Assembly (NCBI RefSeq): GCF_902729405.1
Contig: NZ_LR746496.1
Location: forward strand, 4,216,001 to 4,280,000
Reading direction: 5' to 3'
DNA length: 64,000 nt
From: Acididesulfobacillus acetoxydans
GTDB lineage: Bacteria; Bacillota; Desulfitobacteriia; Desulfitobacteriales; Desulfitobacteriaceae
Below the pieces are notes generated by a model. The model had not been told where the DNA came from. It saw only the letters and a program-made list of their open reading frames with translations, and did not search any database. The first letter of the stretch is position 1. The number at the start of each line of letters is the position of its first letter. The position numbers and the translations under genes are program-made. Positions 14,694-63,639 of the stretch are shown here, in pieces.

Positions 14694-15080
14694 ATGTAGC
14701 GAAGCCAACCTATAAGCCGAGTTCTGTTCCCCCTTGCGGAGGTGATGATCATCTATCTGGGACCCTTGTTACCAACGGCCTCAAGCGACCTTACCCGGGA
14801 ACGAAGCGGGCCGCTTCAGTGTTCCCCTATTCGGTCTTGCTCTGGGTGGGGTTTACAGGGCCAGCCGGTCACCCGGCTGCCGGTGAGCTCTTACCTCGCC
14901 TTTCCATCCTTACCTGACACGCAGATTCCTGTGTGCCGGGCGGTATATCTCTGTTGCACTTTCCTCGGGGTCACCCCCACTGGGCGTTACCCAGCACCCT
15001 GCCCTATAGAGCTCGGACTTTCCTCAGAGACGGCCTTTCGGCCCCTGTCTCCGCGACCATCCGGTTGACTTCGCTCCACT
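14694..15080 (-). ncRNA. rnpB: RNase P RNA (class A)
   Basis: Catalytic RNA of RNase P, which trims tRNA 5' leaders. On the minus strand the P1 stem is formed by GAGCGAAGTCAACC (near 15079) and GGTTGGCTTCGCT (near 14700). In between are the universal GAGGAAAGTCCG block (about 15022-15030), a second GAGGAAAGTGCAACAGAGA block (about 14950-14970), TAACGCCC/GGGGTGACC loop pieces, and near the 3' end ACAGAACTCGGCTTATAGG. All conserved core segments are in order, so it looks intact. The ends are placed by the P1 pairing and may be off by a few bases. Confidence 0.95.
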
Positions 15081-20962: not shown

Positions 20963-21340
20963 CCTTCATAAGGTTAGCCTTCATACGCTTGGATGCTCCA
21001 TGGAACTTAATGGACTTGGGCTCACTCCCGGCACAATTCTGAGAATCCCAACGAACTTTCGGCAGATAAGCAAGATTTAAGTGCGGAGGACAGGAATTAC
21101 ACCCGTCGGAGAACGGACTGAACCTGCCGGAAAACGGACTGCACCTGCCGGAAAACGGACTGCACCTGCCGGAAAACGGACTGCACCTGCCGGAAAACGG
21201 ACTGCACCTGCCGGAAAACGGACTGCACCTGCCGGAAAACGGACTGCACCTGCCGGAAAACTGAAGTATTCCGTTCCGCCAAAAAGGGGATAGGCACCGT
21301 CAAGATGGAGATGCCTGTCCCCACCCTGAGGAGGTTTACG
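20963..21340. other. intergenic gap with a tandem repeat array
   Basis: No gene seen. It contains the 21-bp repeat array at 21115-21261 and, at the right end, the GAGGAGG site of the second permease. Confidence 0.6.
21115..21261. repeat. 21-bp tandem repeat, seven copies
   Basis: Seven contiguous units starting GGACTG at 21115, 21136, 21157, 21178, 21199, 21220 and 21241; the last six are nearly identical. The period is a multiple of three, so both strands stay open (PAGKRTA on +, FRQVQSV on minus), but there is no ribosome binding site for either. It separates the binding protein and permease genes. Confidence 0.95.
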
Positions 21341-24675: not shown

Positions 24676-24827
24676 TTCTTTAAAGAGAGCGTTCAATGCC
24701 GTCTCCCGTAAGCCTATGGCAAATAGCTTCCACTCCCCTGTTCGGCAGAAAGACAGATAATTCAGAGCTTGACAGAACCGTTCGGTACATTTATGATTAG
24801 AGAACAGAGCACCCGGAAATTGAATAA

Positions 24828-24928
24828 ATCTCTTATCAAGAGTGGCGGAGGGACTGGCCCAATGAAGCCCGGCAACCAGCTTTGAGCATGGTGCCAAATC
24901 CTGTAGGATCTATTCCTAACAGATGAGA
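24828..24928 (+). promoter_or_regulatory. S-box (SAM-I) riboswitch
   Basis: P1 is formed by CTCTTATC and GATGAGAG. The conserved core is present: AAGAGTGGCGGAGGGACTGG, CCCAATGAAGCCCGGCAACC, then GGTGCCAAATCCTG. It binds S-adenosylmethionine and, when bound, favours the terminator right after it (24934-24968). Orientation is toward the 79-residue gene at 25027; no methionine or cysteine gene follows within the visible region. Confidence 0.93.
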
Positions 24929-24933
24929 GCAGT

Positions 24934-24968
24934 AAAACATCTCTTCCGTTGGGAGAGATGTTTATTAT
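24934..24968 (+). terminator. riboswitch-controlled intrinsic terminator
   Basis: AAACATCTCTTCC pairs with GGGAGAGATGTTT, followed by ATTATT. It lies 6 bases after the S-box P1 stem, so it is the expression platform. Confidence 0.85.
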
Positions 24969-25026
24969 TGCCTCGAAAAAAGCCAAGATCAATATTTTTG
25001 GTACTTTGCTTGAGAGAGGTGTTTCC

Positions 25027-25266
25027 ATGGACGACATCATCTGGTTTCCCGTAACCGACCAGGGAAAAAAACGTTTTGAACACATCTGTGCCATAACCGG
25101 ACAAAGCAGGGAAGAGTGGTTTAAGTGGGCTTTAAGAGAATCGGAACGCAAAGCCACATCGGAACGCAAAACCACAACGGCTGTCCAAAAGATCTTCCCC
25201 GCAGACGGACTGCCCGACATGATGCTAAATAAGGCCACCGCTCCCCGGCCGGTTCGCAAACTCTAA
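25027..25266 (+). CDS. hypothetical protein, 79 aa, under S-box control
   Basis: I do not recognise this protein. It begins MDDIIWFPVTDQGKKRFEH, which looks like a short amphipathic alpha/beta unit, followed by a helix (SREEWFKWALRESERK) and a basic, probably flexible C-terminus with a repeat (ATSERK-TTT). There is no signal peptide or membrane segment. ATG 25027 is chosen because AGAGAGGTG lies 7 bases before it and the frame upstream overlaps the riboswitch terminator. It is the only gene between the S-box and the next, opposite gene at 25366, so it should respond to SAM level. A role in methionine or SAM homeostasis is an inference from that alone. Confidence 0.65.
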   Translation: MDDIIWFPVTDQGKKRFEHICAITGQSREEWFKWALRESERKATSERKTTTAVQKIFPADGLPDMMLNKATAPRPVRKL

Positions 25267-25365: not shown

Positions 25366-26097
25366 CTACTCAGCTTTTTTACAGTAGTGGACTCCAAGCA
25401 CTAAGACAAGGCCAAAATACAGAACTAAAATCAGCGGGTGCATGGTCCTATTCCATATGTTTTCACCCCTGCTGCGCAAACCCAGGCTCGTCTGGGTCAG
25501 TGGCAGAAGCCAAATGAGATTCTTTAAAAGAAAGGGCATTTTGGCCAAAGGGAAAAATGTCCCACACAAGAAAGCCATGGGGGTAATGATAAAATTGGAG
25601 AATTTAGCCATATCGGCGTGAGACTTGATTAATATACCTACGGTAAAGCCTATGGCTGAAAACGTTAGGCAGTTCAAAACCATCATTAAAACGAAATAGG
25701 GATGAATATCGATTTTCGTCCTGAAAACCAATGCTAAAAGAATGATAAGCCAACCTGAATAGAGCCCCCTGAACGCCCCGGCGACAACTTTTCCGATCGC
25801 GTAGACCCACATATTGAGAGGCGCGACCATAAATTCTTCAAACGTCTTTTCATATAGTCGCGATATGTTAATAGAATTGCCTATAGCGCTGAAACTTGCC
25901 GTCATCGTCGTTAAACCCACGATTCCTGGAATGATAAAGTTAATATAATCCCCGCCCCCTCCGTGCATGCCCCCGCCCAGACCCCAGCCGAAAGCAATCA
26001 GATAGAGAACCGGAGAGATCATGGAACCCAGGGTAATGCTCCAAAACTTCCGTTTAAAGTAGACATACTCCTGCCACATAATCGCGGCCAATCCCAT
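25366..26097 (-). CDS. ABC-2 type transporter permease
   Basis: Membrane half of an ABC exporter (DrrB/NodJ type). It has six helices, an N-terminal amphipathic stretch WQEYVYFKRKFWSI, then LGSMISPVLYLIAFGWGLG, and the family loop NLMWVYAIGKVVAG-type and FLCGTFFPLAKMP motif near residue 180. ATG 26097 sits one base after the stop of the ATPase gene; TTG 26109 would give a 4-codon overlap instead. With its partner it could export a drug, lipid or polymer. It lies at the far end of the leftward corrinoid locus, 60 bases downstream of the BchD-like gene, and may be cotranscribed with it. Confidence 0.9.
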   Translation of the reverse strand: MGLAAIMWQEYVYFKRKFWSITLGSMISPVLYLIAFGWGLGGGMHGGGGDYINFIIPGIVGLTTMTASFSAIGNSINISRLYEKTFEEFMVAPLNMWVYAIGKVVAGAFRGLYSGWLIILLALVFRTKIDIHPYFVLMMVLNCLTFSAIGFTVGILIKSHADMAKFSNFIITPMAFLCGTFFPLAKMPFLLKNLIWLLPLTQTSLGLRSRGENIWNRTMHPLILVLYFGLVLVLGVHYCKKAE

Positions 26098-26098
26098 C

Positions 26099-26938
26099 TC
26101 ATTCCCCAACCCTTCTGTTCGTCAGCTGCAAAAAAACATCTTCCAGATTGGAAGAACGAATCTTAACACTCCCCGCCAGTTTGGCTGCCAAGGCCAGGGC
26201 CTCTTCTCTTGTTTCAAAAAGAACGCCCTTGGTTTCCCCTCTCTCAAAATATTCGACCACGACTTTCCCCACCTTTTTGATTAACCTGGCCGGAGTGTCC
26301 AATTCGACCAATCTTCCTCCGTTCATCAGCCCCACCCTCTGACATAAGATTTCCGCTTCTTCGATGTAGTGAGTGGTTAGCAGTACGGTCAGCCCACCCT
26401 GGCTCAAATTCCTCAATAAGTCCCACATCTTTCTCCTCACTGCGGGGTCAAGACCTACCGTCGGTTCGTCCAGCAGTAGCAGTTCGGGCTGATGCATAAG
26501 GGCCCTGGCGATCATCAGTTTCCGTTTCATACCTCCGGAAAAAGTCCTGGCCAGGTCGTGGGCCCGCTCCACAAGCCCCGTAAATTCCAGAAGTTCGTCG
26601 ATTCTCTCTCTTCTCGACTTTTTCGGCATATGGTAAAGACGCCCATGAAGCTCTAGATTTTCCCAGGCCGTCATTTCACTTTCTAAATTGTTGTGCTGGG
26701 GAACGACCCCTATTTTACGCTTGACCTCGGTGAGGTTTCTGTTCACTGTCTGGCCGGCGACCGCGATTTGCCCTGAAGTTAAAGGAGTCAGGGTGCTGAT
26801 CATTCTTATGGTAGTCGTCTTCCCTGCCCCATTGGGACCCAACAGGCCAAAGAACTCTCCCTTATTTACGACGAGATCCAGATGGTCCACGGCTGTAATT
26901 TGTCCGTATTGTTTCGTCAGATCTTGGATAACTAACAA
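26099..26938 (-). CDS. ABC transporter ATP-binding protein (DrrA/CcmA type)
   Basis: ATPase half of the exporter. It carries Walker A GPNGAGKTT (about 35), Q-loop VPQHNN, signature FSGGMKRKL (about 134), Walker B LLLLDEPTVGLDP and the switch HYIEEAE; a C-terminal domain of about 70 residues (VEYFERGETKGVLFETREEA) is typical of DrrA-type proteins. The start is TTG, 5 bases after GGAGGAGAG. It precedes the ABC-2 permease with essentially no gap. Confidence 0.93.
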   Translation of the reverse strand: MLVIQDLTKQYGQITAVDHLDLVVNKGEFFGLLGPNGAGKTTTIRMISTLTPLTSGQIAVAGQTVNRNLTEVKRKIGVVPQHNNLESEMTAWENLELHGRLYHMPKKSRRERIDELLEFTGLVERAHDLARTFSGGMKRKLMIARALMHQPELLLLDEPTVGLDPAVRRKMWDLLRNLSQGGLTVLLTTHYIEEAEILCQRVGLMNGGRLVELDTPARLIKKVGKVVVEYFERGETKGVLFETREEALALAAKLAGSVKIRSSNLEDVFLQLTNRRVGE

Positions 26939-40179: not shown

Positions 40180-40412
40180 CGTTGGTCACCCGGCGAAAGC
40201 AACACCTCCCCTATCTTCCGTAGGTATCTGTGCTGTTCCGGAGCGAGCAGGTCTCCTGGCTTAAGTTCATCGCTGCCTTACGTCTTCCCGGTTTTACCCA
40301 GTGACACTATGTAAGGCCGCTCACTATCACAGTGGCGGGACCGCGTCAGATTTTAACTGACTTCCCTTTTTCAATACTTTCCCCTTGAGAAAGTATACTC
40401 GCGCCGCATCTA
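40180..40412 (-). promoter_or_regulatory. cobalamin riboswitch
   Basis: The conserved aptamer parts occur in order on the minus strand: GGGAAGTC, CCCGCCACTGTGA (40340s), CCGGGAAGACGTAAGGC, and the B12 box AGCCAGGAGACCTGC (40247-40261). The long P13-type arm and a terminator follow. It should shut off the btuFCD-cobN unit when cobalamin is plentiful. Confidence 0.93.
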
Positions 40413-40456
40413 TTGAGTTTTCGTACTTTTAGGTTAACACAGTGGCACAGGGCTTG

Positions 40457-63238: not shown

Positions 63239-63639
63239 TGACCCACACCTCCTTTGGTTCCGCCCTTCCGTCGGTGTCCGGGACACCTCTGTACTATGGC
63301 TTCTGCTGACTCCTCACGACAAATCTTGTTTCAACCGGGCTTCTTACTCCGTTTCCACCCGTCCGTGAGGCCTCCCACGGTAAGACGATTCACTTTCATT
63401 CCATGTCCCCGCAACATTTACGCTGACGTGTCCGTGTAGCTTTTGGGCTTCAACTTGTATGGCAGTCTTACCCCACATTTCGCGCCTAATATTGTTCGTG
63501 TTCCTCGGGCGGAACTTTGCCGCCGGCTTCCTTCAGATTCCATCTCGCAATGGACACCCTTGCCTTGAGCTAATGGTTGGTCGCTACATACCCCCATAAC
63601 GGACTTTCACCGTCAAGTTAATCGTCATGCGTGGCGCAC
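62500..63639 (-). mobile_element. truncated group II intron inserted antisense in IS3 orfB
   Basis: The intron begins at 63639 with GTGCGCC (5' end on the minus strand), then 400 bases of structured 5' RNA (domain I elements such as GTGAAAGTCCGTTATGGGGG and AAGCCGGCGGCAAAGTTCCG), then the reverse transcriptase frame. The 3' half, including domains V and VI, is gone. The 5' junction cuts IS3 orfB (63640 on). Confidence 0.85.

Follow-up and report, generated by a model that had tools for sequence, protein, structure and literature searches.

A conserved SAM-I riboswitch upstream of a small, ribbon-helix-helix-like protein in Acididesulfobacillus acetoxydans and its relatives

To our knowledge, S-box (SAM-I) riboswitches almost always precede methionine, cysteine or SAM genes. 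One S-box of Acididesulfobacillus acetoxydans leads into the gene of a 79-residue orphan protein, which raises the question of what SAM would control at this locus. The gene lies in a stretch of 64,000 nucleotides (contig NZ_LR746496.1, positions 4,216,001 to 4,280,000), referred to here as the window. A. acetoxydans is an acidophilic sulfate reducer with a genome of 4.52 Mbp and 53.65% GC (PMC8982180); the source genome is a single contig of 4.52 Mb. A first-pass annotation had proposed that the orphan, a lone riboswitch target of no known family, has an undescribed part in SAM homeostasis, perhaps as a regulator or adaptor.

The riboswitch and the gene behind it

The aptamer matched Rfam model RF00162 end to end (model positions 1-108 of 108; E = 1.1e-20 in the 64-kb window), and its score (Table 1) stands against a curated cut-off of 44.4 bits; a chance match is excluded. 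Folding predicted a terminator and an antiterminator that are mutually exclusive, in agreement with the complete aptamer and terminator described in the first-pass annotation. The terminator hairpin with its flanks was calculated at -18.9 kcal/mol, and the competing pairing of ~24916-24928 with ~24940-24952, folded as an isolated segment that lacked the terminator 3' arm, at -9.1 kcal/mol (ViennaRNA). Since the U tract UUUAUUAUU is interrupted, termination may be leaky. As read from sequence and predicted folds, the overall layout is the usual S-box OFF architecture, and the aptamer RNA would be expected, as a member of the SAM-I class, to bind SAM and stop transcription.

Table 1 Features of the riboswitch and gene (window coordinates)
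Feature	Position	Strand	Description
Sigma-A-type promoter	24769..24797	+	TTGACA-17-TATGAT; consensus match only, 11/12
SAM-I (S-box) riboswitch aptamer	24830..24929	+	Rfam RF00162, 91.9 bits, full length
Predicted antiterminator	24916..24952	+	Aptamer 3' part pairs with terminator 5' arm and loop
Intrinsic terminator	24936..24969	+	12-bp stem 24936-24962, then UUUAUUAUU
Ribosome-binding site	25012..25019	+	GAGAGAGG
79-aa protein ORF	25027..25266	+	Residues 1-43 RHH-like domain, 44-79 variable basic tail

As the first-pass annotation had noted, an opposite-strand gene follows directly: an ABC-2 permease gene (25366-26109, minus strand), convergent with the orphan and ending 100 nt past its ORF. 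The neighbours at the window locus include a VTT-domain gene and an ABC transporter. A longer reading frame from a TTG start at 24949 (105 aa) was rejected, as it begins within the terminator and has no counterpart in relatives.

The S-box also stands before the small protein in other genomes. The unit occurs in four species of two genera, namely the source species, a second species of its genus (the sister species), Desulfosporosinus acididurans and Desulfosporosinus sp. FKB, and was recovered from the four genomes by gene search and by aptamer search. The four orphan aptamers are 89-97% identical to one another; their identity to the other S-boxes compared, those of their own genomes included, is 61-83%. 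All four species have a terminator hairpin at the equivalent place, in which one stem pair differs by genus (C-G or U-A), a compensatory change, and a AGAGAGGTG-like ribosome-binding site before the gene. The sister species also has a promoter of equal spacing and score at an equal distance from the aptamer; a palindromic stretch of the promoter spacer (ACCGTTCGGT) was discarded because it is absent from that species. The four S-box-linked proteins form one group in a protein tree, which was built from 45 columns and has modest support. On this sequence conservation, a chance pairing of aptamer and gene is excluded, and the idea that SAM controls an uncharacterised protein is supported.

The source genome has four S-boxes, of which three precede metA, hom (homoserine dehydrogenase) and metY, as named from the translations, and the fourth precedes the orphan. 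Because the remaining S-boxes stand before these three genes, the class appears to sense SAM here as usual. In this survey no S-box was found near metK (3810391), which leaves room for a relay of the low-SAM signal. Across the taxonomic family, the genes behind the S-boxes examined read as metY, metA, hom, MetN-type ABC transporter genes, metH and a homocysteine-synthesis family (names from translations; the pattern search missed some sites), and a motif search of all fetched loci found members of the orphan family immediately after an S-box in only the four species. At one further locus (L167; G017:C6:267751), an S-box is followed by a primosomal priA-like gene, with a deformylase gene ~2.6 kb beyond it on the same strand. 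At two others (L146 and L148, in genomes G036 and G061), paralogues of the orphan that lack an S-box are divergent from S-box-controlled homocysteine-synthesis genes.

Other features were observed in the window. A cobalamin riboswitch (40229-40417, minus strand) is followed on the same strand by genes that resemble those of a periplasmic binding protein and of an iron/B12-type permease. RNase P RNA of class A lies at 14697-15072 (minus strand), and group II intron RNA domains lie near the right end of the window (63262-63554, minus strand). A 21-bp unit repeated in tandem 7.7 times (21100-21261; 96% match), open in several frames, lies between apparent sugar ABC transporter binding-protein and permease genes.

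The small protein, its family and its probable fold

No family in Pfam, NCBIfam, PHROGs or PADLOC was matched above cut-off, and a PDB sequence search gave no meaningful match. The description of the orphan as belonging to no known family thus held as far as these libraries go, but the protein is not a singleton, since S-box-less paralogues are present in many relatives. In these searches the protein family occurred only within the Desulfitobacteriaceae: matches were found in 32 of 83 genomes of the class, all within this taxonomic family, and in four genomes of a 398-genome sample of the phylum, again all within it. A tblastn search of plasmids with the small protein found no match. Most family members are paralogues of ~70 aa without an S-box, which fall into two large subfamilies and one in the genus of the window. 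One paralogue subfamily is followed, in many Desulfosporosinus, by a conserved ~108-aa protein (VSFxDLFTPxFM...; L063:1072-1398 and relatives) that has no Pfam match and that the source genome lacks. Examination of the paralogue neighbours assigned no function to the small protein.

Several lines of comparison point to a ribbon-helix-helix (RHH) fold. Weak library matches included NikA-like proteins (1e-4), RelB/DinJ, RepB/RepA, RHH_1 and Arc-like repressor, together with unrelated weak ones. The window protein had no Pfam match, and its best relative reached 22.2 bits to NikA-like against a cut-off of 27 bits. Because the curated RHH cut-offs were not reached, we call the protein RHH-like and do not place it in a named RHH family. 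Profile-profile alignment (hhalign) to proteins of the RHH_1 and NikA-like kinds taken from the same genomes covered 39-41 columns without gaps, with a score of 24-25 and a probability of 65-77%, and the maximum score of column-shuffled controls (n = 40) was 14-16. Against RHH_1 alone, a narrow set, the score was 16.4 and did not rise above the shuffles. An AlphaFold model of residues 1-48 (pLDDT 74) has an extended N-terminus and helices at 11-24 and 28-47. A Foldseek search with this model returned 29 matches, nearly all RHH proteins and every one with E above 1, including AtaR, TacA, CopASO, ParG, CopG, MazE-type, ParD and MatP. A second structural aligner gave Z up to 5.5, below 8 and rated middling by the tool, and the full-length model (pLDDT 58) gave no matches in the fold search. 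Taken together, the profile alignment, the weak library matches and the fold search make it likely that the first ~43 residues adopt an RHH fold (strand 4-9, helices 11-24 and 28-43).

In canonical RHH repressors, the side of the strand that faces the DNA is lined with polar or basic residues. In the profile alignment, these positions of the small protein hold I4, W6 and P8, the last invariant in the family, so that the side is hydrophobic with a proline and ordinary DNA binding is doubtful. The proposal of a regulator or adaptor therefore fits the RHH-like fold but not the strand residues of an ordinary RHH repressor. As for a type II antitoxin, no toxin gene is conserved beside the orphan across the four loci; only the sister species has VapBC-like genes nearby.

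We tentatively favour a SAM-I OFF switch of the ordinary type whose target is unusual: a regulator or adaptor of RHH type, produced at low SAM. We hold the regulatory role of the protein at slightly less than an even chance. When SAM is plentiful, the aptamer would close P1, the terminator would form and transcription would halt before the gene. When SAM (methionine) is scarce, the 3' side of the aptamer would pair with the 5' arm of the terminator, RNA polymerase would read through and the small protein would be made. We infer that the RNA responds to SAM in vivo and that the RHH unit works as a dimer. The protein would then act on DNA or on a partner, extending the low-SAM response to genes or proteins that have no S-box of their own, and may in this way have a role in SAM homeostasis. 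In the more specific form of a two-tier circuit, the riboswitch would sense SAM and the lineage-specific RHH protein, produced only at low SAM, would relay the signal through a strand face that differs from those of known RHH repressors, which is conceivable, if somewhat doubtful.

A different function for the SAM-regulated RHH-fold protein would be to bind a protein and not DNA, for example to tune peptide deformylase or a methionine enzyme. The hydrophobic strand face with its proline, in place of basic residues, is in line with this, as is the gene order in the two Desulfosporosinus, where a peptide deformylase gene follows the orphan ~60 nt downstream on the same strand. The orphan is thus not always the sole S-box target, and the description of it as a lone target applies to the window and the sister species but not to these two. 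However, the deformylase is absent beside the orphan in the genus of the window, in several other Desulfosporosinus its orthologues come after a gene for a small XRE-type regulator, and no partner is conserved, which leaves binding of a protein unlikely, although the strongest of the alternatives. As orthologues elsewhere are often behind the XRE regulator and away from S-box sites, the deformylase was rejected as the real target of the S-box and the link was treated as local; in the two Desulfosporosinus, the processing of N-terminal methionine may also come under SAM control. The deformylase genes after the S-box and small gene (L017:5270-5725 and L018:650-1105) are second copies.

Conservation of the unit and competing readings

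The start codon, ribosome-binding site and ORF are kept while the downstream context differs between species: the sister species has a dinB-like gene and VapBC-like genes as neighbours, and the two Desulfosporosinus a GNAT-like gene and the peptide deformylase (neighbour names without a family search were read from translations). The riboswitch and gene stay together as these neighbours change, which marks them as a functional unit. No target or partner gene is common to the four loci.

The first ~42 residues are conserved among the four proteins and the tails are not. Between the two congeneric species, pS was 0.66 and pN was 0.15 (pN/pS ~0.22, 42 codons); with pN far below pS, the N-terminal part of the frame is under purifying selection within the genus. 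D. acididurans and Desulfosporosinus sp. FKB differ by 8 amino-acid-changing and 0 silent substitutions in 42 codons, compared with 7 amino-acid-changing and 18 silent substitutions in the neighbouring deformylase of the same species pair, a relaxed pattern that points to weak constraint on the small protein in these two.

Such relaxed substitutions, together with the unconserved tails and absence from most relatives, are what one would see if the locus were a decaying relic, an S-box that has lost its methionine gene and precedes an unimportant small paralogue by chance. Against this, the aptamer and terminator are kept in four species with a compensatory stem change, the unit persists across differing contexts, and the within-genus pN/pS is low, so that we consider a relic improbable. 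The S-box might also work mainly through RNA, either as a trans-acting terminated leader, as SreA of Listeria reportedly does, or by antisense read-through to the convergent ABC genes, with the ORF incidental. Both modes are documented for SAM riboswitches, the antisense one in the ubiG operon of C. acetobutylicum (PMC9943018), and the convergent gene ends close to the orphan, but the ORF with its start signals outlasts changes of downstream context and pN is far below pS within the genus, which makes an RNA function the least probable of the readings.

Relation to known systems

The riboswitch resembles other members of RF00162 in its full aptamer, its terminator/antiterminator platform and its own promoter, and differs in having a target outside the usual set of methionine, cysteine and SAM genes. 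As a class, SAM riboswitches that precede genes of unknown function have been described (PMC3766115). Within the literature searched, no paper mentioned 'SAM riboswitch' together with 'ribbon-helix-helix' or described a SAM-I riboswitch that controls an RHH-like protein. The window S-box is interesting but not a new kind of switch, and the conserved unit suggests an undescribed link in methionine/SAM control. If a conserved S-box on a regulator-like protein is what it appears to be, a second layer could strengthen or redirect the SAM signal, and a small-protein family without a function would gain one.

The protein is predicted to share the order and spacing of strand-helix-helix with RHH proteins (Pfam RHH_1/CopG and NikA-like; AtaR, TacA, ParG), whereas it scores below the curated cut-offs, has a hydrophobic, proline-bearing strand face and lacks a conserved toxin beside it. 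Enterobacteria have a SAM-responsive RHH protein, the methionine repressor MetJ, which would be alike in fold and in SAM logic if the present reading is right. However, MetJ is longer and binds SAM itself, while here RNA would sense SAM. Riboswitches that control regulators through other ligands are already known. The cobalamin riboswitch of Listeria pocR and the c-di-GMP riboswitch of Vibrio tfoY likewise let a ligand-sensing RNA feed a regulator, although their ligands differ from SAM and pocR is controlled through an antisense RNA.
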